Assembly: GCA_003290165.1 (NCBI GenBank)
Contig: QNQO01000223.1
Coordinates: forward strand, 310,001 to 374,000
Length of the DNA: 64,000 nt
Reading direction: 5' to 3'
From: Berberis thunbergii
Taxonomy: Eukaryota; Streptophyta; Magnoliopsida; Ranunculales; Berberidaceae
Shown: piece after piece, positions 23,645 through 52,373 of the stretch
Layout: every line of letters starts with the position of its first letter
Position numbering within the stretch: the first letter of the stretch is position 1
Translations under genes and position numbers: made by a program
Notes under the pieces: generated by a model
Database searches by the model: none
What the model saw: the letters and a program-made list of their open reading frames with translations, nothing else
What the model was told of the DNA's origin: nothing

Positions 23645-25859
23645 TGTTCTCTACCCTATCTTTAGTTTAGGTTTTTCTTTTTCTTTTTCTTTTTCTTTTT
23701 CTTTTTATTTTTCATTTATTATTATTATTTTAGTTTAGTTTAGGTTGTTGCTTTTATGTTTTTCTTTTAGTGTTTCAGGTTATTTTAGGTGTTGCTATTG
23801 GAGTCACTTGGAGCTCTTCATCTCATATGTTCCTTTCTCCCGTCGGTATGAATTTCTTATATTTTGGTGACTGTGAGGACATTGTCTATTTGAAATTGGT
23901 AAAGCTTCACCATGGTAATATCACTCTAACCCTCCTCTTTTCTTTTGCCTTAATTTGTCATGATTATTATTTTATACATTGAGGACAATGTTTGATTTAG
24001 GTTTGGGGGTGTGGTTTATCAGATTTTTTTTATGCAATTTTCAAAAATCTTTGAGTTTAAAACGTATTTTACAATTAAACCGAGCCATTTTTGTGTTCTA
24101 CTCAATCTCTATTGAACACTTAGATGATTATGGTAATTGTGTAAAATCTTCTTGAAAATGCATTTGAAATCCGAACTCTTGGTGAATTAAAAAAAAAAAA
24201 AAGAGGTTTTGAGTTTTTAGAGAATATTTTTGTTGCCTTTAATTTTGAGAAAACACATACTAGCACGTGTCACATAGTTATATTAGTGGAAAACATGATA
24301 TTTGATATTATCCTTATGTTAGATGTATTTCGTGAGACTTTTCAACTCGACTATTCATGCACTATAAGCCAAGTCAACATGATTTGAAGTTGATTAGTGA
24401 GGTATTGAACTAGAAAACCTTAGAATAATAGTAGAGACTTAACCCTTGTGAGTTTTGAGCCATTCTTTATTTCTTGAGGGTTATTAATTACACTCTGATT
24501 TTTCTTGAGTCCGCATTATTTCGTTGATGATCTCATTATTCTTGATTTTCTTATTGATTGCTTTAAAAATGACATAAAAATTGAATCTTTACACTAGAAC
24601 TTTTTGCTTTATTTAGTTGAGATGTCCTAGTACTAACTAGAACTTATGAAGTGATATAGGCATTTCTGTCTTTAAACCATTTTTAGCCTTTTAGCCTACC
24701 CAATAATAAATATCCATTTGCAGCCCTTTGAGCCTTTAGATAGCTTTTTCATTGTTATCCCCATTCCCAATACCCACTCCAATCAAGGAGTAATACCTCT
24801 ATTATTTTATCCTTACCCAATTTTCTGAGAATGTATCCGGTGAGATATATTTATGGAATGGGCAAATAAAAAAAAAAGATATTTCATGCGCCCTCGAAGT
24901 AAAAGTGTTGGATTGTATCAATGGGGAAAAGCATGTCAAAAAAAAATGTGATTGAAGAAGAAAATAATGAAGAAAAAGTTAATGGTGTACAACATTGATT
25001 TGCTCTTCAATGCCCTATGTTTTATTCAAGGGTGTATCCATTCTCAGAAAATCTTTGTATCCTTTTTGTCCATTATTGTTTGCCATAATCCAAGCCCCAA
25101 TACAACCTAGTAAAGACCTGATTGATCTTAAGTGAAAGTTAGCTTAATAGATGTGGAGATTGAATAGGCAAGAACTATGGTGTTTGGTTCAACATTCTCA
25201 AAAGTAATCAATATTTCGGTCCATGAGATCATATTCATTTCACTCTTTGAAAATTTCATTTTTCATGATAATTATATGTGAGACGTTTGCATTTTCCATA
25301 GTATATTCTTTTCCTCACATATAAACTGAGTGCCTAATCTATGAGCGTTTCATTTCCGAGCGACATGAGAGAATTGTAGTCGAAACGTCTTTTTTAAAGG
25401 TTTTCTTGTCACATCTTTACTATGAGATGAAGAGTTATGTTGATAAGGCTCCTCACACACACACTTCGAGTTGAGAATGATTATGAAATCCATTTAACCT
25501 TTAGATACTATTAAATTATTGTACTCTATTAATATACTTTTGTGACAGTTTAGTTTGTTGTTTTTCTCGAATGCTAAGCAATTAGAAAATTACTCTAAGG
25601 AAAATAAAGAAGAATGCTCACGTTTTTGCATTATGTTTTTAGAAAATAGATTTTGTTTTATTGAGTCAGTAATGTTTGGGGGTAGCATTTCTGGAAACCC
25701 TCACGAGACTATAACTCGTCCTCTAGAAGTAATCTAGAGGTTTAAAGCCTTGTTGCACGTTAAGGTAAGTGCAACCGTGATTCCTACGAAAGTGAGTTAG
25801 GATTTTATTCTTTATTTTGTTTTGCTCGAGGACTAGCAAAATATAGGTTTGGGGGTATT
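23645..25859 (+). other. Athila 3' non-coding interior, no env-like gene
   Basis: The 2.2 kb between integrase and the purine tract has only short frames and AT-rich text, with a (CTTTTT)n run near 23680. Some Athila elements carry an env-like ORF here; none is visible. The same region in opposite orientation is found at 27700-29280. Confidence 0.7.
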
Positions 25860-26925
25860 TGATATATACGTAATTATTACAAATTATAACCCTTAATTTA
25901 TATATGTTAGTGCTTCAATTAATATATTTTATTCTAATTATTTCAATTTTTATGTTTTTGTAGGAATCTGCACGCGTGAACGATAAAATCGCATTAAGGC
26001 GACAAATTTGAGAAAATGATTAATTTGTTGATTCTAGTGGTGGTACAAAAGAGTGGTTCACACATCTAAGCCTAACCCGAATAAGCATGGTCCACTTACT
26101 TTAACCAAGCCCAAGCCCAAGCCCAGAAAGCTAGAATCCTAAGCCCAGCCTAACAAGGAAATAGGGGAACCCTATTTAGGTTTCTCTCTTGCCTTCTCTT
26201 TAGAGAGCTCTCTCCCACGTTTTCTGACTTTCCTCTCTTTTCCAGCCACCATCACCATCCCACCAAGGCAGAGCCCTGTGTCTCTCGCCACTGACCAGCC
26301 ACCGTCTTCGCCACTAACCAGCCACCGTCCTCGCCCCTGTTTCACGCTACAAACCTCACCTCGCCACCGTTATCTCTGTCCATAACACAGCCACCACCAC
26401 CATCTCCCTCCATCTTTCTCACCGCCACCATCACTCGAACACCATCGTCACCACCGTGCGCACTGTACTGCCGCGAAACAGGGAGCACCTCCCTGTTTCT
26501 CTCCCTCGCAGCCGCCCTCCTTTCTCTTTCTCTCTTCTCCACGGTCTCTCCCTCCTCCAGGTCTCTCTCTTTTAGAGCCACCACCACCGCGACAGACTCG
26601 CTACCACCGCGAAACAGGGAGAGCACCTCCCTGTTTCTCATCCTCTTTCGCGATTTTGTTATTATCCCTGTTCCCTCACCCTCTCTCTTTGTTCTCGCAG
26701 GTACAGGAGCCGATCGGGAGGAGAGGAGAACAACGGCGAAGTTGGTCGCGTCGCGCTGGAGAAGAAGAAGGAGCTGCAGAGCAGCGAATTCGCGTGGGAA
26801 AAAAAAGTTGTTCTTGTTTTGAAAAACCGTTTTGGCTATTGACACCCTGAGGATATGTAAGAGCCACCACATAGCCTATTTAGCTTTTTTTTGGGATTCG
26901 TGCGCGTACAGGAAGTGATGGATTC
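25860..26925 (+). repeat. 3' LTR of the plus-strand Athila, truncated
   Basis: It is near-identical to 16343-17310 apart from a ~90-bp block (about 26716-26805, CGGGAGGAGAGGAGAAC...) that the 5' LTR lacks. Alignment ends at GATGGATTC (26925). Long frames in this stretch are products of its CCACC/GGTGG composition, not genes. Confidence 0.85.
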
Positions 26926-32974: not shown

Positions 32975-35900
32975 TACAGTAAGTCAATCCTAATGCTCCT
33001 TTAGCATTTTTTCTTGGTAGTTAAAAAAAATAGGCACCACTATGTGCTTATACAGTGAAAAATCTAGTACTGTTTAAACCTTGGTTGTATTTTTGCTGTG
33101 CTCATTTTGTTGCATTCGTGATAGTTTTAGGTAAATGGAAAGAGGTAATCAGTCTATTGAGTTAAAATGAAGCTCTGAATTCAATTATTTCATTCTATTT
33201 CTTCTCTTATAACTTCTTAAGATAACAGATGATAGCATTTGGAGAACTGTGGAATCGCACCAAAAAGTTATTCTGTTATTTTTTTGGGTAAGCAAGACAA
33301 GCATATTTTTTTGGGAGAAAAAGCTGCAAAGAGCATGGAGCTCTCCTTTAATACAAATCATGTTTGGTTTGCTTGATTCTTGGACCTTGATTTGCTTGAT
33401 TGTAGAATATCTCCAATGATTGCATCCCGTATGTGTTTGACTGAAAACATCTATAATATAGCATTCACAACTTCCATATTTGCATAATAGAGAGCATCCA
33501 TCTTCCATATGTTTGTTTTATTTCATACAATCCATAACTTCCTCATTGTTCTTCGATTTCCCCCTTAAATGTAGTTCATTAATCTAGTACGCCATACTAC
33601 ACTTGTGAGGATACACATGATTTAGTAGCCAGCTAACCTCTATTCTGGAAGATGCCTTTTTGTGTTGGCACGGAAGTGCTAGCTTGTCATTCATATTTTC
33701 ATGTAAGATCCCCATTTCATTGTTATTCATTGTTGGTCTTCGTGTATAGCTCTTAGGAAAGAAAAGAAAAAGAAAGCCTTGCATGAGGAATAAGAGATGG
33801 TCAGATTAGCCAAGGACACTGCCTAGTGATCTCATCGGGGACACAATAAAGGCCATAAGGGAGAGTGTGACCCTTTTGCAGAACGTAGGCAAGTCATCCT
33901 TGGCTACCAAACCCGACTCTTCATCGTCATGTGTAAGACCTTCATTTCATCTTCATGTGTAAGACCTTCATTTCATCTTCATGTATTATTGATCCTGTAT
34001 GTATGTGGCTTTAGAAATTAAAGAAAAGACAGTCTTGCATGATGATTAAGAGACAGTCAGGTTAGCCAAGGAGGCTGCCTATGAGCCACATTAGGGACAT
34101 AAGTCCATAAATGGGGACACCCTTTTGAGGATATTAAGCAAGTCATCCTTGGCTACCCAACATGACTCTACGTCTTCATGTAAGACCCCCATTTCCTCTT
34201 TCTCTCATCACATATTGCTTTACTACTCTACACCAGTTCGTCAATGCAAGAGCCTGTATTTATAGATCCGTGTTTTGAAAGATAAGATTTTTATCTTGAT
34301 TAAGTTTCCTTATAATTTTACCTTAATTGGGTTTCTTATCTCGGCAAACACACTTTTATTCGGTCATTTGGATGCCAAGATAGGGAATATATTCTTGTGA
34401 TACATATCCATTGACCGATACTTGATAAAGCTCTGTCCACGTCTTTATGCATGACTGGGTAATCAAAGATGGAATTCTGATGAGAACAAAGGAAATTAAC
34501 CACAAAGAGATGGGTTCCTGACCAACGTTGTGTCATGTGAACGTATTGATTCTAAAATTTATGACCCATAACTCCCATACTGTTGGACATGGTGCCTTGC
34601 AAAAATACTTTTTCTCATGGTTCAAGAGTCATGTGGTAATCAGTATAAGGATCCTTGTAAATATAAATTAGGTTAATTTCTTTGGTCTGTCTTACTGATG
34701 CAGGGTTGAACTGTATATACACATTTTTTTTCGACCCATTTAAATTTGGTCTTTCATATCGACAAACAAAAGCAGGGTTCTTGAAACCAATCCATAAAGA
34801 TGTGCAAATCTCTGTATGTTGACATGAAACTTTTTATGTAAGGATATAGCCTTTAAGATGTTAAAAGGTCAACTGAAGTTATTCAAAACTCAAGTTGTCA
34901 ACTGAGCATTGCATGTGAATGGTTATTGGGAATATTAGAAAGCTTTAGGGGAACTTTTGCTTTCTGTTCATTGACATTCTTACATATCTTCTTCAAATTA
35001 TCAAGCTCCACTCGCAACATCAAGAGGAAGATGAACATCTCTGTATAAGCTGACTTTGTGTCATACAAATCACATCACAAGAACATATTCTTTGTCATGG
35101 ACACCTAAATGTCATGGGGTGGATGGAGAGATCGATAATTCGAGATGTACTAGAAAGTAGGTTTGGTGTATGTGATAGAGCAATATGTGTCCAAGGAAAG
35201 AGAGGTCTTACATGGAGATAAAAGGGATGTTTTATCCTTGGTGGTATCCCATGGTCTTAAATCATCACATTTGAGTAAGGGATTTTTTTTTATCCTTTTT
35301 AGTCTCTAAAACCACAATTCAGCAATTCTGGTTTGGCACTCTGAGGCAAGATATGAGTGATGGATTAAGTTCTGAAGTCTCCAAGTAGTAATTTATAATA
35401 CTTGTATACCTTTTGGAACTTATAGTACGATCTAATCACCAATATGCAGGTGCTTGAGATGGTCCTAACCTAGTTTCTGGCGATTAAACAATGGTCCGTA
35501 ATGATGCTAATGTTCCTTAGCATTTTTGTCTTGGTCGTTAAATAGAGTTGGGCACCACGATGTGCTAACGTGTTGTGAAAAATCTAGTACTGTTCAAACC
35601 TTGGTTGCATTTTTGCTGTGATCATTTTATTGCACTCCTGATGGTATTAGGTGAATGGAAAGAGGTAAAATCAGTTATTGAGTTAAAAGGACGCACTAAT
35701 TGAACTCAGTTATTTCATCTAACATGACTAATCGAAAATGCACATTCACTACAAGTTAGTTTTTCTAATACAAGTTAGTTACTAGTATTACATGCCATAA
35801 TTTTCCCCATTTAAAGCATGAGCCCAGATGCAGATAAAGGTTTAAGTAGCTTGGATCCTTAGTGGCTTGGGATTGTAAATCATTTGCGATAAATGTAGGA

Positions 35901-36134
35901 GAAACTTGGATCCTAGAAACAGATGAAGAATGTCCAGCCCATCTGATGTTGGAGTCTGACATAGTCTGTATTCACTCTTGTCCTTTGTTAGTCTAGTATT
36001 TGTCTCTGTTTTCAAACAATATTGACCGTATTTGACTTATAGTACTTATCTCTTAGAAAGGACAGTATTTTTCCTACATGCATATGATTGCTAATCATAT
36101 ATACATACAAATATTTTTTGTTTTCCATGCATTT
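32975..36134. repeat. Duplicated flank Y, non-coding, with internal near-repeats
   Basis: A block with CTAATGCTCCTTTAGCATTT and AACCTTGGTTGTATTTTTG occurs at 32980-33190, again (diverged) at 35490-35760, and at 54740-54960. Another block (GAGGATACACATGATTTAG, ACCTCTATTCTGGAAG) occurs at 33470-33700 and 60690-60860. A third (GGTTAGCCAAGGA, CAAGTCATCCTTGGCTACC) occurs at 33780-33950 and 34035-34200, and in part near 61050. I see no gene that I can support. The AT-rich 3' end may include the TIFY gene 3' UTR. Confidence 0.65.
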
Positions 36135-39100
36135 TTAATATGCGCCATCATCATTCTTGGGCTTCTTCACTTGTGAAGTTCCAACTTCATCATTCTTTTG
36201 TCCTACAACTTGCTGGCCCTTTGATCTCGGAACATCGCCATCTTTGCACCTACAACAATGGCATTGTCAGGTTTTTCTCGTTTCCTTTTAGTTACTGAAC
36301 TAGGCTGGCACTCAATGTAATCATAATCCTGTACATCATCGCCTGTGCTAAATTATCTAACTTGTAAGAATTAGTACTACGGGTTGATGCACCATGACTT
36401 GAGATTGAGAGAAATGGAATTTTTTTTTGTTTTTTTGTTTTGCTCATTTGGTCATAATTATTCGATAGGAATTATGACTCACATAATTTATTTTTACCGA
36501 AACACAAACTAATAGTTTGACAATTTCTGAGTCTCACATTGTAACCTAAGCACACATGTACTATGCTACCACACAGAGCATACTATCTTCTTCTAGCATG
36601 CAGAATATATGAAATCAAGAAAAAATAAACACCAAAATCAATTTACCTCCTTGCGTTGCGCTGCTCGATGAACCGAATAATTGAGTTCCGGCGAGCAAGC
36701 TCGACTCTACTAACTCCTGCAGCTGTAATCAACCGAGCACAAAAATGAGATTGAGAGGGGTTTTGTCAAATTCAACTAGTTATACAAATAACATGGTTAT
36801 ACATAGAAGAAATAACCTTTGACAGCTTGGTTGAGTCCGTTAAGCCCTATTGGATTTTCATTTGGAGGTTGTATAAAATCAGAGGGCTCTGGCACAGGTT
36901 CAGGGACTTTGCAGTCCGCTGTTTTGCAGAACATCATCAGCAACTCCGCCTATACCAAAACCACCCCAAAAACATAAACTGAAAATAATATAGTAAAATA
37001 ATATTAAACCTTTGTAACGCATCAGTCAATAGACAATACCTTTTCAGGAGGGAGATTGAAGGATGAAACAGATCCCCTGTAGAAAACTGTTACAGGCATC
37101 GGAGGTGGTGGTGGAGGCACAGCCATTGCCCTGCAAGGTACAAATAATTCCAAAGATCATCATAAATCACACAAATGTTGTAAAAACTAAGCAAAAATGG
37201 TTATTTAGTTATCTTGATTACATCCATGGTCGTCGCTGGACAGGCCTCCTAGGGGCTGCTGGTAGGGCTGTCGAAGGAGGAGAATCTATTTGTCGCTTCA
37301 TTCCTGTAATGTAAAAACTTCATTTTCTAGGTAAAATATTTAAAAGAGAAAAAAAAAGTGAACAAAAGATAGCAAATTAATTACGACTATTTCCATGATT
37401 GTAGTAGGTCTGATAGCTAGCTTTGGAACCTGATGAACAAGCTTCAACCCGTTCAGATTTGGGTTTCGGGGCTGGTGGTGGAGGCACAGTCATTGCCCTG
37501 CAAGGTACAAATAATTTCAAATCATCATAAATCATACAAATGTTGTAAAACTAAGCAAAAATGGTTATTTAGTTATTTGGATTACATCCACGGACGGCGC
37601 TGGACAGGATGCCTAGGGGCTGCTGGTAGCTGGACAGGGCGCCTAGGGGCTGCTGGTAGGGCTGGCGCAGGAGTCCTATCTATTTGACGCTTCATACCTG
37701 TAATGGCAAAACTTCATTTTTTTATTTTTATTTTTTTTTTTTTTTTAAACCTTCATTTTCTAGGTAAAATAATTAACAGTGAAAAAAAAGTGAACATAAG
37801 ATAGCAAATCAATTAAGACAATTTCCAGGATTGTAGCTCGGATAGTTAGCTTTGGAACCTGATGAACAAGCACCAACCCGTTCAGATTCGGGTTTCGGCA
37901 TTGAAGGTGGTGGTGGAGGCACAGCCATTGCCCTGCAAGGTACAAATAATTCCAAAGATCATCATAAATCGTACAAATGTTGTAAAAACTAAGCAAAAAT
38001 GATGATTTTAGTTATCTTGACTACATCCATGGACGTCGCTGGACCGGCTGCCTGGGGGCTGGTAGGGCTGTCGGAGGAGGCGAATCTTTTTGTCGCTTCA
38101 TTCCTGTAATGGAAAAACTTCATTTTCTAGGTAAAATAATTAAAAGAGGAAAAAAAAAGTGAACAAAAGGTAGCAAATTAATTAAGACTATTTCAATGAT
38201 TGTAGTAAGTCTAAGAGCTAGCTTTGGAACCTGATGAACAAGCTTCAACCCGTTCAGATTTGGGTTTCGGCATTGGGGCTGGTGGTGGAGGCACAGTCAT
38301 TGCCCTGCAAGGTACAAATAATTTCAAAGATCATCATAAATCATACAAAATGTTGTAAAAACTAAGCAAAAATGGTTATTTAGTTATCTGGATTACATCC
38401 ACGGACGGCGCTGAACAGGATGCCTAGGGGCTGCTGGTCGCTGGACAGGGCGCCTAGGGGCTTCTGGTAGGGCTGGCGCAGGAGTCGTATCTATTTGACG
38501 CTTCATACCTGTAATGGAAAAACTTCATTTTTTTTTATTTTATTTTTTTAAACCTTCATTTTCTAGGTAAAATAATTAACAGTGAAAAAAAAAGTGAACA
38601 TAAGATAGCAAATCAATTAAGACTATTTCCAGGATTGTAGCTCGGATAACTAGCTTTGGAACCTGATGAACAAGCACCAACCCGTTCAGATTCGGGTTTT
38701 GGCATCGAAGGTGGTGGTGGAGGCACAGCCATTGCCCTGCAAGGTACAAATAATTCCAAAGATCATCATAAATCGTACAAATGTTGTAAAAACTAAGCAA
38801 AAATGATGATTTTAGTTATCTTGATTACATCCATGGACGTCGCTGGACCGGCTGCCTGGGGGCTGGTAGGGCTGTCGGAGGAGGCGAATCTATTTGTAGC
38901 TTCATTCCTGTAATGGAAAAACTTCATTTTCTAGGTAAAATAATTAAAAGATAAAAAAAAATGTGAACAAAAGATAGCAAATTAATTAAGACTATTTCCA
39001 TGATTGTAGTAGGTCTGATAGCTAGCTTTGGAACCTGATGAACAAGCTTCAACCCGTTCAGATTTGGGTTTCAGCGTGGGGGCTAGTGGTGGAGGCACAG

Positions 39101-39524
39101 TCGTCATTGCCCTGCGAGGTACAAATAATTTCAAAGATCATCATAAATCATACAAAATGTTGTAAAAACTAAGCAAAAATGGTTATTTAGTTATCTGTAT
39201 TACATCCACGGACGTCGCTGGACAGGGTGCCTAGGGGCTGCTGGTAAGGCTGGCGGAGGAGGCATGTCTATTTGACGCTTCATCCCTGTAATGGAAGAAC
39301 TTCATTTTCTAGGTAAAATAATTAAAAGTGAAAAAACAGTGAACAAAAGATAGCAAATTAATTAAGGCTATTTCCATGATTATAGATAAAGAAAGCTAGC
39401 TAGCTTTGGAACCTGATGAACAAGATTCAGGTTGAGGCTTGGGTTTCGTCATCTGCGTCGGCATTGGGGCTGGAGGAGGAAGATCGCTCTCAACCTTGAT
39501 TTCCTTTCCTCTCGAATTCTTCAT
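36135..39524 (-). CDS. TIFY/JAZ-like protein, gene 1, with amplified proline-rich exon pair
   Basis: TIFY/JAZ proteins are nuclear repressors in jasmonate signalling. The ZIM domain recruits NINJA/TOPLESS, and the Jas motif binds MYC factors and COI1. Exon 1 (39413-39524) starts MKNSRGKEIKVESDLPPPAP. Eleven alternating small exons follow: six A exons (such as GMKRQIDMPPPPALPAAPRH ending PVQRRPWM) and five B exons (AMTVPPPPAPMPKPKSERVE, then ACSSG). The TIFY exon (37040-37130) reads PVTVFYRGSVSSFNLPPEK, a variant of TIFYxG. The ZIM end (36817-36949) has AELLMMFCKTADCKVPEP. The Jas-like exon (36647-36722) has VELARRNSIIRFIEQRNARR. The last exon ends at 36135. Introns obey GT-AG and phases join throughout. 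The Jas motif is divergent and no PY follows, so COI1 binding is doubtful. Confidence 0.75.
37220..39290 (-). repeat. Tandem amplification of a two-exon cassette in TIFY gene 1
   Basis: A exons start near 37307, 37697, 38106, 38511, 38910 and 39285, so unit length alternates near 360-380 and 430-440 bp. The higher-order unit is about 800-810 bp. Introns are duplicated too (shared TTCATTTTCTAGGTAAAATA and GTACAAATAATTCCAAAGAT). Each A exon begins in phase 1 and ends in phase 2. Each B exon begins in phase 2 and ends in phase 1. Any number of A+B pairs therefore keeps the frame. Two A exons (near 37590 and 38400) carry an internal duplication of AAPRRPVQ-type units. Confidence 0.9.
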
Positions 39525-39582
39525 TTTTTCACTCTCTCAGAAGCTCAACACAAGCACTACAACAAAAATGTGACAGAGACTG

Positions 39583-39673
39583 TTTTATAGAGAGAGAACA
39601 CGAGAGAAAGATGAGCGCTTGTTAAAGAGAGAAGAGCACAGAAGCTTCAATGCACGTCTTTTATGTCCACGTG
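39583..39673 (-). promoter_or_regulatory. TIFY gene 1 promoter: TATA box and G-box
   Basis: On the minus strand TATAAAA (39583-39589) lies 59 bases before the ATG at 39524. CACGTG (39668-39673), the G-box bound by MYC2-type bHLH factors, lies about 80 bases further upstream. Both are in the same place in gene 3. Jasmonate control is an inference from the gene family and the motif. Confidence 0.6.
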
Positions 39674-40815
39674 GTTAATATATTTGAACAAACTCCATGG
39701 CAGGTTGCTTTGAATTACAATAACACCCTCTAGTTTTTGTCACCACGTTGGATTGCTATTGTGCTCCACCACAACAATCCATCCCATGCCTTAAATTAAA
39801 ATAGGTCCAATTTCCACCGCATTTTATTGGGGAGGTCAGGATTTTTTGAAATGAATTTGACCATTGTCTACTACATTGGTTTAGGGTAAGAAATTCTTAC
39901 TTCTTTAAGAATTTTTTTTTGAGACACAACCTACATTTTTTAGGGCAATAGCTACAATAATCAATAATCATGTCGTGTTTAATTTATTATAGAACGGATA
40001 TCTAGCACAATTGGTAAGACTTGCAACGGGATGTATCACAAGTCCAAGATTTGAATCCTAATGCATTGAGATGTATCATGCCCAAAATGTCTTTGTAAGT
40101 ACCTTCGAGCTAGATCCTTGTTAAGGGCCAATCAAGAAATGAGTTTTAAGTAATTTGACAATATGAATCTCAAAGACATAGTCCGAACTATAAATCATAA
40201 CGGTCTCGTAGTTTGACTCGTGTTATCTTGAGATCATTTGATAATTAACGAATTTGTTAACAAAATTCGTTAAAGTCCTTATTTTACTCTACACGTGAAT
40301 ACCCGAGAAGTTAGGAATCCAATAGGTTAAACACGACAAAATTAATGTGCTTGGCGACAAAAGCAACTTTTAGATGTAAAAGTTAAGTGTCGTTGCATTT
40401 AGTTGGACCTGATGATTCCAAGAATGTAATAATCGAATGATATAATAAATTGTTAGGAAGTTTAATATTATTATTTACGGATAAAATAAAACACCAAACA
40501 TTTATATTAATTAAATAAGAGATAATTTGCATTTGGGTCTTATAGCACTTTTGAATTTTGGTCTCAATTTTGAGTCCGCCTCAAAGACCATTTGACCCCT
40601 ATGTCTGTCAATTGGTATAAATTGTCAGACCTAAAGTCTTAAGTTTATCTATGTCAAAGTCAATATTATTTCAAAATACTAAAAATTCATTTAGTTACTG
40701 GGGCAGAGAGTTGCACATGGTCAACATGATCTTTGGATTTAGACTTCAAATTGGATAAACTTGAAATCCAAACTCAAAATTGATAATCATGAGATACAAA
40801 TACAAACTCAATGGT
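39674..40815. other. Intergenic region between TIFY genes 1 and 2
   Basis: It repeats the sequence upstream of gene 2 (about 48680-50700), including GGTTAAACACGAC-type text and a tRNA-like element. From about 40512 to 40800 it holds a diverged copy of the MITE seen at 49498-49843 (start GATAATTTGCATTTGGGTC). No gene is seen. Confidence 0.6.
39996..40135 (+). mobile_element. tRNA-derived SINE-like sequence
   Basis: A-box-like TAGCACAATTGGTAAGACTT and B-box-like GATTTGAATCC (about 40051-40061) resemble a tRNA gene body but lack a foldable tRNA. A close copy lies at 48959-49120 in the duplicated segment, so it predates the TIFY duplication. Confidence 0.5.
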
Positions 40816-41591
40816 TCAAGCTTTCTTCCTCACACATGAAGTACCCACTTCATCACGCCTTTGTTTTTTATTCTGGCCCTTGCACCTACAACAATGACAT
40901 TGTCTATAAATAAATATTTTGATCTAGTTAATTTTAATCCTGCGAACTTTACAGATTAGTTCTAAGGGCCTCCTCAAAGCACAAATACTATGGAGAAGGT
41001 GTTTGGTGTTCCTTTAATTTTGAAAAGAATATTTTACTTAGTTGACTTTTTTTTTTTTTTTTTTTTCTATTCTTCTTTCTTTTTTAAAATTTTACTTAGT
41101 TGACTCAGTGTTGTAAAAATCATTATTAATTTTGTTTTATAGGTCAAAGTAGAAGTGAATGTTGCCTTTTGCCTCAAGTTGGTGAGAGGATAGAAAAACA
41201 CTGGTGACAATGAGACGTTATCTTTACATGATTTTTCAGTTTTTCTGGGCTCTCATCACTTTCTATTAGATAGACCAACGCACCCTCCAGGTGCTTTTCC
41301 TTTTGCTTTCACTTACTGAATACAAGCTGGTTCTCAATGTAGTCATAACTCTTTACGTCATCGCCTATGTTAAGTAAGTTATCTAATTTACAATCTTGTC
41401 CTTGTAAAAATTAGACATGGAGGAAATTTTGCTCCTTAGGTCATTGTTCAAAAGCAATTATGGTGCACATACTAAATTTGTCGACTGACCCAAGGAAATC
41501 GGTAGGTATTTTCATTTGATTTTGCTGAACCAAAAACTAGTGGTTGACATTTTTTTCGAGTCACACTATGACTTAAGCAACATATACTTGT

Positions 41592-44500
41592 TGGACGGTG
41601 AGTATTTGGGTAAGAAAGATTTCTAAAAGGAGTGAGTAAAGTAGAGGAGAGGAGAGGCTCTTGAACTCAATTTACTTGGCTTGACTTGGAGCAAATGACT
41701 TTATATCAACCTTATTTATAGGGATCTTGGATGACTCTAGAATCTAATAAAATGTTCTACATATCTTAGATATTTCTAGAGAACAACCTACCTAAGATAA
41801 ATCTAGACTTCAAAGAGAATTCTAGATAATGATTTTTCTATAACCTCTCTAGAAAAATTTACCTCTAGAGTATTCTACTTCTTGGATTCTCTAACCTATT
41901 GAGCTCAGCCCAAACCAACATACAACAAAAATAATGAAGCCCAACATCTTGGGCCAAATCAAGTTTACACATCAACACTCCCCCTTAAACTTGATTTTTT
42001 AACTCCCAGTAAACTTCTCATCTTGTAGGGGATTGGTGAATATGTCTGCAACTTGATCATGAGTTTTCACTTAATTCAATTGCACATCCTTCTTTGCTAT
42101 GCAATCTCTGATGCAGTGATATCGTGTCTCAATGTGTTTGCTTTTATCATAAAATACCAGATTATTTCCCAAGGCAATCACAGACTTGTTGTCGACATAT
42201 ATCTTCGTCGCTCCTTGATGTATTTTGAGTTCCTTCATCAAATTTCTAAGCCAGATTGTGTGACACACGCATGATGCCGCCACAACATATTCGGCTTCAC
42301 ATGTAGAAAGTGCAACAATCGGTTACTTTTTTGAGCTCCAGGTGAATGATGTGTCTCCCTTGAAAAACGCAAATCTACTGGTACTCTTTCAATCATCCAC
42401 ATCACCAGCCCAGTCACTATCACTATATCCAACTAACTCAAAGTTGTTAGATGGTGAATAACATAATCCATAATCCAACGTACCTTTGATATAGCGAAGG
42501 ATTCTTCTGGCGGTCTTCAAGTGAGTGGTGGTTGGAGCTTCCATGTAGCGACTTACCTGTCCGACTCCAAAGAGTATGTCCGGCCTTGTACATGTTAGGT
42601 ACCGCAGGCTTCCTACTAAGCTATTAAAATATGTAGGATCAACCTTTTTTTTTTTTTTTTTTCTTTCCCTTTTTCATGTTTTGATAATTTTATTCCACAT
42701 TCCACGGGAGTGCTTATGGGCTTGCAAGTGTCCATCCTAAATTTCTAAAGTACTTGTCTAGCATACTCTTCTTGGGAAATTAAAATTCCTCCTTTCTGTC
42801 TGTTTTACCTCTATGCTAAGTTAGTAGGACATGAGCCCGACATTCGTCATTTCAAATTCGTTGGCCATTGCTTTTTTGAAATCATCAAGCAAGCCTTGGT
42901 TGCTCCTGGTAAAAATCAAGTCATCCACGTAAAGGCACACGATCGAAATATCTTCTCCTTTGATCTTTATATAGAGGGCATGCTCGTAGGGACACTTTGT
43001 GAAGCCATTGTCTTGGAAGTACTTGTCGATCTGACTGTTCCATGCCCTTGGTGCTTGTTTTAACCCGTACAAAGCTTTCTTCAGCTTCAAGACTTTCTCT
43101 TCATGTCCCTTCACTTCAAAACCTGAAGGTTGCTTGATGTAGACTTCTTCTTCGAGTACCCCATATAGGAATGCAGACTTTACATCCATTTGGTGTATTT
43201 TCTACTTATTATGAGTTGCCATAGAAATAATTAGTCTAATAGTTTCTAATCGGGCTACTAGAGCAAATACTTCATCAAAGTCAATTCTAGCCTTTTGACT
43301 GTAGCCTTTCGTGACTAGTCTTGCCTTGTATCTTTCAATTTCTCCATTAGCATTCTTCTTTGCCTTGTACACCCATTTGATGCCTATCGCCTTTTGTCAT
43401 TTGGGAAGTGAGACGAGTTCCCATGTGTCGTTCTTCTCGATGGCCTTGATTTCTTCGTCCATCGCACCTCTCCACTTCTTATCATGTACAACTTCTTGAA
43501 AACTGTCTGGTTCACAATAAGCAAAGAGACAAAATAGAGTAAGATTATCTTGTCGGTAAGTTACCTCATATAGATCTTGAAGACTTCGTGTACGTGACAC
43601 ATCTATTTCACTTTGACTTCCACTTGAAACTGACAAGGGTGATGCGTCTCCATGAGTTGTTGATGTTGGCGAGGTAGATGGAGTCATGGGTTGTTGTTGA
43701 TTTCTTGGTCAATCCAGTAGCGTCTTCTCATTTTCTAACTCCGGAAAGAAATTGAAGTCTTCTGGATGGGATTTAAATTAAATCCCATTGCCCTTGTTCT
43801 TCGAATACCACGTCTCGGCTAATCACAATCCTCTTAGGATTGTACAACTTGTAACCTTTTGAGTTGGAGTCATAGCTGACAAAGATGAAACTCTTACTTT
43901 TGTCATCAAGTTTGGTTCTTCTCTCATCTGGTACATGAACATGGGCTATGCTTCCGAAGACCCTTATGTGGGAGATACCAGGCTTTCTTCCACTCCATGC
44001 TTCTTGTGGAGTCTTTCCCCACACACTTCTTGTTGGCGAATGGTTGGACAGGTAAATTGCGCAAGCCATTGCTTCTGCCCAGAACTCCTTGGGTAATTTC
44101 TTGCTTTTTAGCATGCTTCGTGCCATATCAAGGATGGTTCTATTCTTTCTTTCTGCAACACCGTTTGTTGGGGAGATCTTGGAACGATTAGAGGACACCG
44201 AATACCGTTTGCTTCACAGAACTCCAGGAATTCCTTAGATGTGTATTCTCCTCCTTGGTCAGATCTCAAGGCTTTAATCTCCCGTCCACTTTCTTTCTCT
44301 AATGTGGCTTTGAACTTCTTGAAGGCTTCAAAGACTTCTGTTTCAAAAAATACACACAGGTTTTTCTTGAAAAATCATCAATAAAGAGAAGGAAGTAATT
44401 TCTTTTACCAAGGGAACTTGGCTTGATTGGTCCACGAACATCTGTATGTATCAACTCCAGTGGTTTCTTGGCTCTCGAATTTGACTCTTTTGGAAAGCTC

Positions 44501-45263
44501 TTTCTGAATTGCTTCCCGAGTAAACATCCTTCACATAATTGTTCAGGGTGATTGATGCATGGTAAGCCCCTCACCATCTTCTTCTTGGATAGTAGCTCCA
44601 ATCCTCCAAAGTTGAGGTTCCCAAATCAAAGATTCCATAGCCATGACGCATCTTTGTAGCAAGCTTTCAGACATTTCGCGACATCATTTTGTATGTTGAT
44701 CAAGAACATTCTATTATTTGACATTGGCACTTTAGAAATTAAGTTATTCTTATCATCTCTTATTGAAAGGTTATAATCCTTCATACGTATGTCATAACCT
44801 TTCTCTAAGAGTTGTCCTAAGCTCAAGATATTACTTTTCATATTGGGAACATAGTAGACATTAGAAGTAAATTGATGTGTACCAACTTTCAAACGGATAA
44901 GGATGTTACCTCTTCCTTTCACTGCTGCTTTGGAATCATCTCCAAACGAGACATTTCCGCTCACCGATTCGTCTAGTTCGACGAACATATCTCTCCTTCC
45001 ACACATGTGATTGCTTGCATCAGTGTCAAGATGCCAAGAATTCGCTTGGCCACCATCATTCTTTTTCCCAACTAGAAGAAGTGTTTCTTTCGCATCGGTC
45101 TTCTCCTCCATGTAATTTGTCTTCTCTTTGACTCCGTTCTTGGGAGCTCTACATTCAGATGCATAATGCACCGACAATGGAGGAGAATATATGTCAGATG
45201 AGTTCTCTCAATTTTGTATAGAACATAGAATTCAATGACAAATAACATGTCTGGATACTCCAC
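41592..45263 (-). mobile_element. Ty1-copia element, 5'-truncated, multiply interrupted (minus strand)
   Basis: From right to left: a gag zinc-knuckle tail (HYASECRAP near 45175), protease (WHLDTDASNHMCG), GAG-pre-integrase, integrase with ELIHTDVRGP and NGVAERKNRTILDMARSML, RT with MDVKSAFLYGVLEEEVYIKQ and IVCLYVDDLIFT, and RNase H tail (YVDNKSVIALGNN). A purine tract (complement CTCCCCCTTAA, 41971-41985) precedes the 3' LTR (about 41592-41974). The 5' LTR and most of gag are gone. The open frame is broken many times. It sits in TIFY gene 2. Confidence 0.8.
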
Positions 45264-45419
45264 AGTAGAATGATGTTTTTAGGCGAAAGTTGGGACATCT
45301 CTCGGCGATGTTCTTGTCATGGCTGCACAAAAAGAACCTTCCAAGGGAGCTGTGGTCAGGTACAATGGAGGAGAATGATGTGCTTGTCATGTCATGTAAT
45401 TAATCGGTTGCCATCATGG

Positions 45420-47815
45420 TCAGGTACAATTTGGTTCACTTTGCTATGTTCATGTTTCTAAAAGTAGCCGAACTAAACTAGACCCAAAAACAAAAAAATG
45501 TGTTTTTGTTGGCTATGACTCGCATAGGAAGGGATGGAGATGTATGGATCTAGCAACAGAAAAATTTGTGGTCTCCCGCAATGTGATTTTTGATGAAGTG
45601 TTGACATATTACACTGTTAGCGATTGGGGAAATGATACAAATGACTTTGAGGCTTTTCCAAATTTCGAAAAAGGGGGATGACAGATTTTTTGCCTGCAGC
45701 AAATATTTAGCAAGATGAGTTCATGGTTTGTTGGTCATCAAGGCAAAGACGACAATCTGATTATTTAATTGACTGTGATTTAGTTGAATAACTGCACCAT
45801 AACATCTTGTTTTTTCATGGGCATCTCCTATTAAAATGAACCTAATCTTATTTCTTCATGGGTATCTTCTATGAAAATGAACCTAAGTGTTAAAACGAAG
45901 CTCAAGGAATTGTTGAATGGGAAGGGGCAATGCGTGAAGAAATCGATGCCTTGTACATGAACATTACTTGGGTACTTGTACCAAAACCCAAGGACACTGA
46001 CTTAGTTTCTTGCAAATGGGTGTACAAGTTGAAGAAGAAGTTTGATGGCATTGTTGAAAGGTATATAGCTTAGCTTGTGGCTTGCGGTTTCTCACAACAA
46101 TATGGGTTAGACTACGAGGAGACTTCCAGCCCGGTTGCAAAAATGGTTACAATTCAGACAATGATTTCTTTGGCTGCATACAAAGGATGAAACTTGTGGC
46201 ATCTTGACATAAAAAATGCTTTTTTTTACAGCGACTCGGATCGTGATATTTTTATGGAACAACCCCAATGATTTGTTTCTAAAGATTTTCGAATTATGTG
46301 TGTAGACTCAAAAAGGCGCTATGGTCTCAAGCAAGCTCCACGCGCTTGGTTGGTAGGTTGCACAAAATCTTGCATTTTGCGGTTATAAACCTTTGCATTC
46401 CGATCCAAGCTTATTTGTGAAAATAAAGTCCCAAATATTCATGATGCTTCTTCTTTATGTGGATGACATGATTATTACCGGAGATGATGTGGTTGAAATT
46501 CGACGTCTTCAAGATGACTTGTCTATCCGATTTGACATGAAGAATTTGGGGGAAGTTGCTTGTTTTCTAGGCTTTGAAGTTGAAAAATCAAACGGTTATT
46601 TTGTGTCTCAAAGGTGGTATGCAGCAAGTTTGTTGGAAATTTATGGCATGGACGAGCAAAAGCTATGTCCACTCCTATGGAACCATGTTTCAGGCTACAA
46701 AAAGTTGAAGGGGAGTGCTAAAAGATGCAACAAAATTTCGCCAACTCGTGGGTAGTTTATTCTATTTGATTATCACGAGACCAGATCTTGCATACTCTGC
46801 AAGAGTGGTGTCCCAATTCATGAGCAGCCCATGTGTTGGTCATTTGAATGTAGTGAAACGTATTCTACGCTATGTGAAAGACACCTTGGACTTCGAGATG
46901 ATGTATTGGAAGAGTTAACAATTCACATTACATTGGTTTGTTGATTTAGATTGGGCTGGAGATATTAATGACATGCGATCCATCACAGGCTATTGTTTTA
47001 ATACAGGTTCAGCTGTTGTTTCATGGTGTAGTAAAAGGCAAAGTGTTATTGCTCTTTCAAGCACATAAGTAGAATATGTGGCAGCTTATGGCAACACAAG
47101 AGTGTATATAGTTAAAGAAGTTGTTTCAAGACATAGATATTGCCTTAGATCATGAGATTCTTATTAAACGTGACAATCAAAGTGCTATCAGACTTGCTGC
47201 AAAACCTTGTGTTTTATGCTCGCACTAAACACATTGAGGTTCATCATCATTTTGTTCGAGAGAAGGTACTAAATGGGGAGATTGAGTTGCAAAACATTCG
47301 CACCAACAATCAAGTCACAGACATCTTCACTAAAGCTCTTGCCAAAGTTGTATTGAGAAGTTTAGAGATGTTCTATGCACTAAGGGGGAGTGTAAAAAAT
47401 TAGTGCATTGCTATGTGCACATGAACTATTGTCCTCTATATTTTGTCATCCAAAAATTTAGAAACATGCATGTGTTTGATGAAGTCTTCATATGAGTTTA
47501 CTTAGAAGTAAATTGAGGGATTTCTAGTACTGATGCACCCAAATGATTGTACCTCAATGCAGTAGCAGTGAATTATATTAGTTGAGTAATTTATGCTAGG
47601 ATTGAGTCAATTTAGCTAAGAAGATTTAGGAGTGAGTATAGCAGCTGTAGGACAGGTCTAGTACAAATAAATGAGTCTGTAATGCTAGCAGATCATCCCA
47701 TTTTAGTTTAGTATTTTCATTGAGTAATAAATTCAACTTTAGTTCAGCTGATATATTCTTTGTTAATTCAAGTTAAATCGATATCTTTGAGTTAATTGAA
47801 GCAAATATTTTTGTA
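45420..47815 (+). mobile_element. Ty1-copia element, 5'-truncated, with 3' LTR (plus strand)
   Basis: It begins in the integrase C-terminal part (KKCVFVGYDSHRKGWRCMDL, then VVSRNVIFDEV). It continues through RT ([38 protein letters not shown]) and RNase H (LVGSLFYLIITRPDLAY, IEVHHHFVREKVLNGEIELQ), ending LRGSVKN at 47403. A purine tract AGGGGGAGTG (47383-47392) leads into an LTR that runs to about 47815. Several stops interrupt the RT. Its family differs from that of the neighbouring minus-strand element, so these are two independent insertions facing away from each other's 5' ends. Confidence 0.78.
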
Positions 47816-48294
47816 AGTAGAGACACATGCATTGCCCTGCAACGTACAAATAATTACAAAGATCATCATAAATCTTATAAATCCTACAAATTTAGTTATC
47901 TTAATTATTACATCCATGGACGTCGCTGGACAGGCTGCCTAGGGGCTGCTGGTACGGCTGGCAGAAGAGGCATATCTATTTGACGTTTCATTCCTGTAAT
48001 GGAAAAACTTCATTTTCTAGGTAAAATAATTAAAAGTGAAAAAAGTGAACATAAGATAGCAAATCAATTAAGACTATTTCCATGTTTATAGGTCCGAAAG
48101 AAAGATAGATTTGTAACCTGATGAACAAGATTAAGGTTGAGGCTTAGGTTTCAACATTATCGGCATTGGGGTTGGAGAAAGAAGATTGTTCTCAACCTCG
48201 ATTTCCTTTCCTCTTGAATTCTTCATTTTTTCACTCTCTCAGAAGACTCAACACAAGCACTTCAACAAAAATGTGAGAGAGATTGTTTTATAGA

Positions 48295-48593
48295 CACTAC
48301 ACCAAATTGGCATATTTGTAATAACTCGAAAAACAATAACACTTTTGAGCTATAACAATCCACCAAACAATTTCAAGTCAAAACTAAATTTAGTAAAAAA
48401 AAAATAGTTAAAAAAATTGATACAATAAATTGGATCAACATGAATAACATCACTTGTAGGACCATACTCTTCATGGTGATATAATTATTGTATCATTTTG
48501 TTTGTGTAAATGTGTAAAATTGTTTTGTAGATTGTTATAGTTAAAAAATGTTACTAATTTGGGTTGTTATAAAAATGTCAATTTGGTGAAGTC
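48295..48593. mobile_element. CACTA-type MITE inserted beside the TATA box of TIFY gene 2
   Basis: The 299-bp element has ends CACTACACCAAATTGGCAT and, inverted, GACTTCACCAAATTGACAT. It is flanked by a 3-bp duplication AGA (48292-48294 and 48594-48596). The TATA-like TTTTATA of gene 2 is at 48286-48292, so the MITE lies immediately upstream of it on the minus strand. Genes 1 and 3 lack it at the matching site. Confidence 0.85.
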
Positions 48594-48958
48594 AGAGAAA
48601 GAACACGAGAAAATGATGAGCGTTTCATAAAGCGAGAAGAACACAAGAACTTCAATGCATGTCTTTTATGTCCACGCGGTTATAATATATTTGAACAAAC
48701 TTCATGGAAGGTTGCATTGAATTACGATAGTACCCTCTAGGTTTTGTCACCATGTTGGATTGCTATTGTGCTCCACCACAATTCCATTGTGTGTGAAGAC
48801 ATTCCTTAAATGAAATGAAAATAGTCCAATTTCCACCGCATTTCATTGGGGACGTTGGATTTTATTTTTTTATTTTTTTGAGTTAATTTGACCATTGTCT
48901 ACTCCATGACTTAGGGTAAGAAATTTTTACTTCTAGAGACATTTAATTAAATATAGAC

Positions 48959-49120
48959 CGGATATCTAGCTCAATCGGTAAGACTTGTGTCGGAAAAGTA
49001 TCACAAGTCCAAGATTTGAATCCTAATGCATTGAGATGTATCATGCCCAAAATGTCCTTGTAAGTACCAACCATGCATGGATGTAACTCGAGTTAGATCC
49101 TTGCTAAGGGCCAAAATCAA
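48959..49120 (+). mobile_element. tRNA-derived SINE-like sequence, second copy
   Basis: TAGCTCAATCGGTAAGACTT (A-box-like) and GATTTGAATCC (B-box-like) are closer to a tRNA than the copy at 39996. It is shared by duplication with that copy. Confidence 0.5.
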
Positions 49121-49497
49121 GAAATGAATTTTAAGTAAGTTGACAATATGAATCTCAAAGATATTGTCCGAAGTGTAAGTCATAACGGTCTTGTAGTTTG
49201 ACTCATATTATCTTGAGGTCATTTGATAATTAACGAATTTGTTAACAAAAATCGTTATTTTACTCTACACGTGAATACCCGAGAACTTAGGAATCCAATA
49301 GGTTAAACATGAAAAAAATTAATGCGCTTGGCGACAAGAAAACCCTTTAGATATAAAAGTTAAATGTCGTTGCATTGTAGCAGGAGTTGATAAATCCATG
49401 CAATGTAATGATCGAATGATATAATAAATTGTTAGGAAGTTTATATTATTATTTACGGATAAAATGAAATACCATACACTCATATTAATTAAAGAAT

Positions 49498-49843
49498 GGA
49501 TAATTTGCATTTGGGTCCTACAGTTTTTAGCAGTTTTGAATTTGGGTCCCAATTTTATTCAACTTTGAGTCTGGGCCCCAAGACACATTGACCTCATGTC
49601 TGTCAACTCTTCATTACAAATATATGATCTGAATGCAAAACTGGTATAAATTGTCAGATCTAAAGTTTAAATTTATCTATATCAAAGTTAATATCATTTC
49701 AAAAAATTTTAATTCATTTAATTACTAGACGGAGTGTTATGCACGGTCAATTTGGTCTTCAGACCCTGACTCAAAGTTGGACAAACTTGAGACCCAAACT
49801 CAAAGTTGATATAAATAATGGGAATCCAAATACAAATTAACCC
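49498..49843. mobile_element. Mutator-type MITE with 9-10-bp TSD
   Basis: The inverted ends are GGATAATTTGCATTTGGGTC and, as complement of the right end, GGGTTAATTTGTATTTGGAT. The flanks are ATTAAAGAAT (49488-49497) and ATTAAGGAAT (49844-49853), one mismatch in ten. A diverged copy exists in the paralogous place near 40512-40800. Confidence 0.65.
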
Positions 49844-50715
49844 ATTAAGGAATCTGATTTGGCTATTCAAGTTACAATTCCCTCTTCAGTTTAGCAAGAT
49901 ATGAAACATTACCATGTCGTGGGTTTTTTTTTATATTATGTATTTCAAATCTTAGATATACAAAAACGGAAAAATATTGAAGCAAAGAGCTCCACACTAG
50001 AATTACATGGTTCCCTTCAAAGAGGGAGGTAATACATGGTCGTTGACTTCCTTTACATGATTACATTTACAATGTCCGCTCTCTTACCCTCCAAGCTTTT
50101 TCTTAGAATCTTCACCATTTTCTCCTCCTTTTACAACCAATATCCCTTCCCTTTTAGGAAACCTTATATCAACTTTAAATCACTACCTCACATGTAATGC
50201 ATCACCATGTGAAGTATATCTGATTCAATTTCAGCAAGAAAGAACAAATAAATCATATTCAAGTTCACTAAAGTCGAAGTCAATCTAAGGTCAATAATTC
50301 AAAGCAAAGTCAACTGAGCAGGAGTTTAATCGCATCGAATTATATGTTTTGTGATTCTTTCCAAATTTTTGCGATTGTAATTTTCAGACCTTGTACAAAT
50401 TTAATTTTTTCAATTTACCTCTAAAGATTGTTCTTTCCGTTAAATATCAAACATCAAGAGCAAACGTAAAGGGGGGACAAAATACCGCGATTTTTGTTCA
50501 ATTTCAGTACGTAAATACGTAAAGATCTTAGAGTCTGATGGACAACTTAAAACAAAGTAAGAAGAAGATGGAAGATAAAGACTGAGGTAAACAAAGATAT
50601 GGTAAACTAAATAGAGCGAAATTTTCTGACGAAACCCAGGATTGCTTTTTCTGCCTGATCAATTGATTCAAGCTTTCTTCCTCACACATGAAGTACCAAC
50701 TTCATCACGTCTTTG

Positions 50716-52373
50716 TCATTGATTCTGGCCCTTACACCTACAACAACGACATTGTCTGTAAGTAAATATTTCATCTAGTTAGTTTAAATCCTGCCAAATG
50801 CATATTAATTCTTAGGGCCTCCACAAAGCCCAAATATTGTGGAGAAAGTGCTTGGCGTTCCTTTAATTTTGTAAAGAATATTTTACTTAGTTTACTCATT
50901 GTATTACAAATCATTAATTGGTTTTATATAGGTCCAAGTAGAAGCGAATGTTGTCTTCTGCCTCGAGTCAGTGAGAGGATAGAAAAACACTCGCGACAAT
51001 TAGACGTTCTCATTGTTTCCTTTTTCCGGCTCTCACTTTCTATTAGATAGACCAACATACCCTCCAGGTGTTTTTCCTTCTTCTTTCAGTTACTGAACTA
51101 CTGGCTGGCTCTCAATCTAGTCATAACCACATACATCATCACTAATGCTAAATAAGTTATCTAATTCGCAATCTTGTCCTTGTAAAAATTATACATGGAA
51201 GATTTTTCTTCCTTGGGTCATTGTTCAGTAACAATTATGATGCACATACTAAATTTGTCGGCTTGACCGACCCAAGGAAATCTGTGGGTATTTTCATTTG
51301 ATTTTGTCGAACCAAAAACTAGGGGTTAACATTTTTCAGAGACCTGAGCAAACATGTACTATGCTACCACATGTATATAATATCAGGATTCTACCTCTAG
51401 CATGCAAAATACATGAAAAGAAAAACCAGGTGAACACCAACATCAATTTACCTTCTCTCCCTGCGTTGCTCAATAAACCTAAAAATTGACCTCCTCCGCG
51501 CAAGCTCCACTGAACTAGCTTCTGCAGCAGTAATATACCGAGAGCACACATATGAGATTGAGAGGGGTTTTGTCAAATTCAACTATATTTATACATCTAA
51601 CATGGTTATATATGAAGAAATAACTACCTTCAACAACTCCGTTGAGTCCATGAAACACCATTGGAGTTTCATTAGGAAGTTCTCTAAAATCAGACAGTTC
51701 AGGCAACGGTTCAGGGACTTTGCAGTTCGCAGTCTGGCAAAACATCATCATTATCTCCGCCTATACAAAACCACCCCAAAAACAATCAACAACAACATAA
51801 ACTGAAAATATAGTAAAATAATTTTAAACTTTTGTAACAGATCAAATGGACAGTACTTTTTCAGGAAGTAGATTGAAGGATGAAACAGTTCCCCTGTAGA
51901 AAAACTGTTACAGGCACCGGACTTGGTGGTGGAGGCACAGTCACTACCCTGCAAGGTACAAATAATTCCAAAATATCAGATATCATACAATTGTTGTAAG
52001 ACCTAAGCAAAAATGGTGATTCAATTTGTTAGTATTACCATTACCTGCGTGCCTGTCGGACAGGGAGCTTTTGACGATGCCTAGGGGCTGGTGGTGGAGG
52101 CACAGTCAAGCGGCCGGACGAAGGACTTACAGTAGTAGCAATAGTCCTCCTTTCAATGCCTGTATTGAAAAAACATCAATTTCCAGGTAAAATAAGTAAA
52201 AGAGAAAAATAAAGGTGAACAAAAGAGAACACAATGAAAATTTTTCCATGAATGCAGTTCTGAAAGCCAAGTTTGGAACCTGATACAAATGAAGGTTCTG
52301 GTTTGGTTTTCATCATCGGGGCTGGAGGAGGGAGATCGATCTCAACCTTCTCCTTTCCTCTCCAAACCTTCAT
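50716..52373 (-). pseudogene. TIFY/JAZ-like gene 3, six exons, frameshift in the TIFY motif
   Basis: Exon 1 (52280-52373) starts MKVWRGKEKVEIDLPPPAPM. A single proline-rich exon (52045-52159, RLTVPPPPAPRHRQKLPVRQ) replaces the amplified A/B series. The TIFY exon (about 51855-51952) has one extra A in an A-run near 51900 (T on the coding strand) compared with gene 1, which shifts the frame in the TVFY motif and gives a stop. The ZIM end (51628-51760, AEIMMMFCQTANCKVPEP) and Jas-like exon (51452-51527, VELARRRSIFRFIEQRRERR) are intact and closer to a canonical Jas motif than in gene 1. The last exon stops after CKGQNQ (50716), earlier than in gene 2. It could be functional only if the homopolymer is a sequencing error. 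Confidence 0.75.

Follow-up and report, generated by a model that had tools for sequence, protein, structure and literature searches.

A stretch of 64,000 nucleotides from Berberis thunbergii (contig C223:310001-374000; hereafter the window) contains a gene in which copies of two small exons, A and B, alternate between the first exon and an exon that resembles the TIFY domain. Exon B is a chimera of the gene's own sequence: the start of the TIFY-like exon, together with the intron that precedes it, is fused to the end of exon 1, together with the intron that follows it. We think it probable that this is a divergent JAZ-like gene in which an exon pair expanded in frame by unequal crossing-over, and that it encodes a JAZ-type repressor carrying a long spacer or docking arm. 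Related loci were sought throughout the 2.24-Gb genome of the same species.

The cassette exons and their order

The gene model lies on the minus strand, as do all exons given below; it begins with a start codon at 39524, ends with a stop codon at 36203 and comprises 16 exons with an open reading frame of 489 amino acids. Exon 1 leads into ABABABABABA; the TIFY-like exon, a second core exon and the Jas-like exon come next, before a last exon, and every internal splice site is GT/AG. Exon 1 (39413..39524) holds the start codon and terminates with CSSG in phase 1. The core is made up of the TIFY-like exon (37040..37130), placed by the model, Pfam and alignments, the exon that follows it (AELLMMFCKTADCK...; 36817..36949) and the Jas-like exon (VELARRNSIIRFIEQRNAR; 36647..36722), which was recognized from the model and a profile match. 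The predicted last exon (36203..36347) is uncertain and, on comparison, unlike that of the paralogues. An open frame was set aside as proof by itself; because other frames of the proline-rich exons are also partly open, the absence of stops is a weak sign, and frame-keeping indels and splice sites were used instead.

Exon 1 and the TIFY-like exon are separated by eleven cassette exons, six A and five B. From 5' to 3', the A copies measure 82, 79, 112, 79, 112 and 82 nt and the B copies 77, 74, 74, 74 and 68 nt, and every A is entered in phase 1 and left in phase 2, every B entered in phase 2 and left in phase 1. The original prediction had proposed this number of exons, these phases and a linker of more than 300 residues, and all are borne out by the model: the cassette exons sum to 913 nt, and the predicted arm has 303 residues, 78 of which are proline (26%), 50 lysine or arginine and 17 aspartate or glutamate. 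The cassette introns are 126-161 nt long before A and 88-92 nt after A, with an AT content of 72-75% (38-46% in the cassette exons). Any A acceptor fits the donor of exon 1 or of any B, and the acceptors of B and of the TIFY exon fit any A donor, so that whole pairs could be lost by splicing or recombination without a frameshift.

Seven families of direct repeats, 33-300 nt long and spaced 367-435 and 800-811 bases apart, far exceed what chance would give, and a tandem-repeat search detected an array at 38550-39429 (score 1288). The repeat search and the unit alignments also agree with the claim that the introns were duplicated along with the exons. Units of two lineages alternate three times along the array: alpha (U1, U3 and U5) and beta (U2, U4 and U6). 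A1 (39204..39285) belongs to the alpha lineage, as do A3 (38397..38508) and A5 (37586..37697), both of which carry a 30-bp in-frame duplication that the tandem-repeat search also found. A2 (38829..38907) and A4 (38025..38103), each with a 3-bp deletion, and A6 (37222..37303) are beta. The lineages are those of the unit tree, and the positions of B1 (39035..39111), B2 (38663..38736), B3 (38231..38304), B4 (37859..37932) and B5 (37430..37497) are those of the model.

Units differ from one another by up to 12.5%. Support in the unit tree is 0.98 for U3+U5 and 0.91 for the beta group, and a tree built from introns only gives 0.90 for U1+U3+U5 and 0.92 for U3+U5. Two distant relatives, p3 and q1 (described below), group with the beta units (nodes 0.60 and 0.92) and not at the outgroup root that was expected, and the other deep nodes reach 0.54-0.81. 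Because of this unexpected root and the weak deep nodes, we rested the order of events on discrete markers and on the alternation of alpha and beta. The threefold alternation supports the earlier suggestion that a four-exon dimer of ~800 bp (alpha-B-beta-B) was amplified.

Origin of exon B and intermediates in the genome

In all five B copies, and in the B exon of a paralogue (p4), the local alignment to the TIFY exon already starts in the upstream intron, and that to exon 1 sets in after the first 13-29 nt of B and continues through the intron that follows. The close match to the TIFY exon is confined to its first ~36 nt, from which the 5' part of B derives, in B3 and the p4 B, where we inspected the exon alignments; some TIFY alignments trail on at low similarity. 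The two parent exons overlap in a tract of proline codons (PPPxPMP) that both contain. The simplest origin suggested by the alignments is a misaligned crossing-over from one tract to the other: it would give exon 1-A-B-A-TIFY, and the product would be in frame because the two tracts share codon register. A foreign or mobile cassette was considered and rejected, as both halves of B and both introns derive from the gene's own sequence. In the genome search (E up to 0.001; 76 candidates scored), all matches to the A part of the query fell on C223 or C6814, the contigs of the gene cluster to which this gene belongs.

That cluster consists of at least eight JAZ-like copies or fragments, all on one strand, spread over ~134 kb (window 36203-52373; C223:346206-480615). 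With loci on other contigs, it provides what read as intermediates retained in the genome: one A and no B (q1 and p3), A-B-A (p4) and six A with five B (the cassette gene). Paralogue p3 (50677..52373, minus strand) retains exon 1 and, as read by eye, a single diverged A-like exon, followed by a TIFY exon with a 1-bp frameshift in the window copy and by a Jas part. At the q1 locus, present on three other contigs (L021, L022 and L023), single copies of the exon-1 start, the A core and the TIFY-exon start occur each time, with no B; its next exon has a stop in L022 and a frame break in L023. Paralogue p4 (L011 and L015) reads exon 1-A-B-A until other sequence interrupts it within the next intron, and its B is likewise chimeric; its second A has a 1-bp deletion in L015 and not in L011. 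The first A of p4 carries the 30-bp duplication of A3 and A5, and the second the 3-bp deletion of A2 and A4. In the unit comparison, the first p4 unit is 90.5-91.2% identical to alpha units versus 87.8-88.9% to beta units, and the second 90.8-92.4% identical to beta units and 88.2-89.5% to alpha units.

We infer unequal crossing-over from its products: tandem copies that include the introns, a frame-neutral unit, a higher-order periodicity and intermediates are all present. The ancestral layout would have been exon 1 - A - TIFY exon - exon - Jas exon. Misaligned copies may then have recombined within the PPPxPMP tract, creating the chimeric B and a second A, after which A+B would have formed a symmetric 1-1 phase module. 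The alpha-B-beta-B dimer would subsequently have been amplified to three dimers, giving six A and five B, followed by later exchange of sequence among the units. In tandem exon duplication generally, a frame-neutral unit between phase-1 introns is multiplied by unequal crossing-over. The present case differs from such 1-1 expansion in that the unit is an exon pair, one member of which was fused from halves of the flanking exons inside a coding proline tract.

Other copies record different breaks. Paralogue p2 (47834..48226, minus strand) has an exon 1 with a stop and one A before it passes into unrelated sequence ~20 nt into the next exon; 41365-40825 probably holds its 3' remnants. The same kind of unrelated sequence is entered ~20 nt into the TIFY/B exon in both p2 (window 48226-47800) and p7 (L018:1970-1500), and this shared kind of break suggests that it is older than their duplication. 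The TIFY exon of p6 is cut ~16 nt from its start (L017:1785-1799 / L013:1938-1952; C223:~459.8k and C6814:~273.9k), by sequence that matches repeats at window 16343-17080 and 25859-26925; these flank reading frames at 18407-23644 that we take to encode a retroelement-like polyprotein.

Contig C1542 also holds a piece of cassette intron, without an A exon. This piece (95.7% identical to window 37758-37850) adjoins, with 12 bases between, a piece of the second core exon with its flanks (L019:1454-1813 and L020:1281-1640; 98% identical to window 36718-36974). The fusion is present in two copies inside stretches of ~5 kb that are 98.7% alike, and we read these as captured or filler gene fragments.

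TIFY and JAZ identity

To judge from its sequence, the gene is a divergent JAZ-like gene, and its TIFY/JAZ identity is weaker than had been assumed. Its TIFY-like and Jas-like parts stand in the same order as in JAZ proteins, the repressors of jasmonate signalling (Arabidopsis JAZ1/TIFY10A, PDB 8t2i chain J). Searching with the cassette gene alone finds JAZ1 (8t2i_J) at E 0.023; a profile built from five family members finds it at E 0.0022, in an alignment that stays colinear across TIFY and Jas, and matches JAZ degron peptides weakly at the Jas part (E 0.77-1.1). The TIFY-like core motif, TVFYRG, departs by one conservative change (I to V) from TIF[F/Y]xG (PMC8469637; papers given by PMC number are cited here from excerpts), and published variants of the motif include TMFYAG and SIFYGG (PMC5453414). 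The Jas-like SIIRFIEQRNAR keeps four of the six fixed positions of the consensus S-L-x2-F-x2-K-R-x2-R (PMC8469637). The following intron lies two bases past the codon that aligns with the final R of IARRASLHRFLEKRKDR, which is the position of the Jas intron. Most JAZ genes likewise have an intron after the 20-residue Jas motif, where it separates X5PY; JAZ1, JAZ7 and JAZ8 themselves are without it (PMC7450174). Retention of this intron in the cassette gene would lead to RR-stop, and a retained Jas intron is described as giving an immediate in-frame stop (PMC5453414).

Several results count against a full JAZ assignment. PF06200 (tify) matches residues 350-378 of the whole protein with 20.6 bits (E 2.8e-4), below the curated cut-off of 27 bits, and the core alone with 23.5 bits (E 3.4e-5), also below it; four of five family members are matched (best E 2.6e-5), which is sub-threshold but consistent. 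No match to PF09425 (Jas) was reported in the protein or the core up to E 10, where HMMER filters may drop weak matches. A search for these two profiles, suggested with the original prediction, thus returned the first below its cut-off and not the second. PY is absent from the predicted protein, and with it X5PY after the Jas core, in a model whose last exon is uncertain; LxLxL and DLNxxP are absent from the predicted protein as well. Because of the sub-cut-off tify match and the missing PF09425 and PY, we describe the gene as JAZ-like and stop short of classing it among the JAZ genes. The claim of TIFY/JAZ membership retains the colinear JAZ1 match and the intron position, and falls short on the tify score.

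Protein-database searches passed no relatives among 7991 candidates sharing most words (a set possibly swamped by proline words), 28 and 198; this says little about plants, because the database may hold few. Matches to PF02425 (GBP_PSP peptide; 12 repeat residues, E 7.8e-4, 19.5 bits versus a cut-off of 25) and to PF11360 and PF01893 (E 0.07-0.08, below cut-off) were taken as chance.

The splicing, expression and function of the long form are what we infer from sequence. The predicted product would be repressor-like, with a basic, proline-rich and presumably disordered arm in front of the TIFY-like and Jas-like parts. The TIFY-like part would presumably serve adaptor binding or dimerization, and the Jas-like part the binding of a transcription factor or COI1; in JAZ proteins, ZIM/TIFY recruits NINJA and mediates dimers, and Jas binds MYC-type factors and COI1 (PMC12647438). 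A JAZ-type repressor appears most likely, in which the arm would be a long spacer or a multivalent docking surface with repeated short motifs. VELARR stands where JAZ1 has LPIARR, which has a role in the JAZ1 degron (PMC12647438), so jasmonate-triggered turnover of the predicted protein may be weak, as in JAZ8 and JAZ13, whose degrons are also non-canonical. The cassette protein differs from JAZ8 in having a long N-terminal arm and in lacking LxLxL; an EAR motif is reported for JAZ8 in the title of Shyu et al. 2012, as cited in PMC12647438.

Upstream of the gene, TATAAA lies at -65 from the start codon (39584..39589, minus strand), and a G-box, CCACGTGG, has its core at -149 (39667..39674, plus strand). 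G-boxes are bound by MYC factors. The octamer CCACGTGG occurs twice in the window versus 0.28 expected, the other copy lying upstream of p3, and in the 400-600 bases upstream of each copy, p1, p3 and p8 have CACGTG and p2, p4, p7 and q1 lack it. Across the whole window, CACGTG occurs 12 times versus 4.8 expected, an excess that makes the G-box a weaker sign of function.

Compared with JAZ proteins, the cassette gene stands apart in its TVFYRG, its lack of PY, its low tify score and an arm of repeated exons before TIFY. TIFY genes with many exons are already in print: AcZML1 has 21 exons (PMC8897921), SlJAZ3 up to 15 (PMC8469637), cassava TIFY genes 1-10 (PMC9581314), and FtJAZ11 exceeds its kin by at least five, with exon duplication named as one possible cause among several (PMC10341436). 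Tomato SlJAZ12 (Solyc01g009740) is also unusually long and rich in exons (636 aa, 23 exons), but, compared by description only, it lacks the Jas motif and has a divergent, C-terminal ZIM (PMC5453414). The titles and abstract openings listed by searches of open-licence papers, and the excerpts on many-exon genes, report no repeated exon cassette in a TIFY gene. The linker had been called undescribed; within that literature this holds for the repeated cassette and not for a multitude of exons.

Maintenance of the array and rival explanations

Gap runs are divisible by three in 20 of 20 pairwise cases in A and B, versus 10 of 48 in the cassette introns; the exon gaps represent approximately four independent events. 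Given an intron tree length of 0.29, unconstrained evolution would be expected to bring ~1.6 stops, 2.4 splice-site hits and 1.6-4.7 frameshifts, and the probability of no stop, frameshift or splice loss would be 0.0002-0.004, a rough figure for the window haplotype that ignores gene conversion. In the core (TIFY-Jas), the ratio of nonsynonymous to synonymous divergence (dN/dS) is 0.28 versus q1 and 0.51 versus p8. Paralogue p3, with its frameshifted window copy, was left out of dN/dS, and the family alignment used its copy L010 on another contig.

Other observations argue against a maintained long protein. Alpha and beta have diverged (K) by 0.185 in A and 0.131 in B, by 0.109 in intron 1 and by 0.066 in intron 2, and dN/dS of B is 0.54-1.37 in six alpha-beta pairs. 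The cassette exons have thus diverged faster than their own introns, and there is no sign of conserved residues in the arm. We did not rely on dN/dS of A (0.23-0.54 in nine alpha-beta pairs; 1.11 for A3-A5) as proof of constraint, because synonymous divergence in A exceeds intron divergence. A second contig, C6814 (L009), likely the other haplotype, has the same six A and five B in the same order, but its frame is broken by two single-base deletions, one in exon 1 (39519) and one in A5 (37646-37649). Coding substitutions between the two copies are six nonsynonymous and two synonymous. Five of the eight copies seen in the cluster (p2, p4, p6, p7 and p8) are interrupted, either by a stop or by sequence that is inserted or unrelated, so the cassette gene may be on the same path. 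Together, the deletions on C6814, the broken neighbours and the unconstrained cassette exons are the case for a decaying or dead copy in a JAZ-like pseudogene cluster, in which amplification was a neutral accident and the long protein is not made. We find this doubtful, if worth keeping in view: the window haplotype is intact over 16 exons at the low unconstrained probability given above, the core has a dN/dS of 0.28 versus q1, and the two deletions match the 1-bp background between the contigs. In a control of 6 kb around a neighbouring reading frame (window 222-1496, minus strand), which we take to be of PPR type, the same contigs differ by 11 one-base indels, one of them inside the frame, so base-level assembly errors are a fair, unproven explanation for the C6814 deletions. 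The 3' end of that frame itself differs from the other contig by a 1-base indel at 239, either through an error of assembly or because one haplotype is frameshifted.

Expression with most or all A+B pairs skipped, the cassettes being alternative exons and the protein of ordinary JAZ size, seems to us rather unlikely. Donors and acceptors are interchangeable in frame, and the repeated short introns and exons invite skipping; however, the cassette sites are GT/AG, the composition of exons and introns is like that of the gene's other exons, and the frame-keeping indels argue for at least partial inclusion.

Substitutions between the contigs are concentrated in the array, with 16 of 17 over 35695-40300 falling within 37401-38668. 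At 6 of the 10 sites where C6814 has an unusual state, that state matches another unit, versus 6.5% expected (P 1.3e-5). A broader count, 12 of 16 contig differences as unit exchange, was rejected because a match is trivial where the window copy has a private state. The 6 matches in 10 fit exchange between units by gene conversion or shifted pairing, although cross-mapped polishing could mimic it. That the array is an assembly artefact, with its repeat number wrong or collapsed, is highly improbable: base-level errors look common in the assembly and cross-mapped polishing could yield such clustered substitutions and shared states, but two separately numbered contigs share the 6A/5B order, the units are up to 12.5% apart in ordered alternating lineages, and p4 independently has A-B-A. 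The number of pairs, which had been proposed to change freely, is equal on both contigs and differs only between paralogues.

Our preferred reading remains a divergent JAZ-like gene with an exon pair expanded in frame. More tentatively, and with little confidence, we suggest that the arm is self-made and expandable: the proline repeat would be the recombination site that fused the exons, the new exon pair would go on multiplying in frame along with its introns, and the arm, perhaps with its valency or stability, would be tunable by pair number and skipping. The steps by which a long repeat arm is gained are usually erased; here, one genome keeps a series whose breakpoint can still be read. Should the gene be expressed, it would offer a natural series for the effects of a disordered N-terminal arm on a JAZ-type repressor and for the seeding of exons by proline-codon tracts; if it is not, it still documents in-frame exon fusion by recombination.

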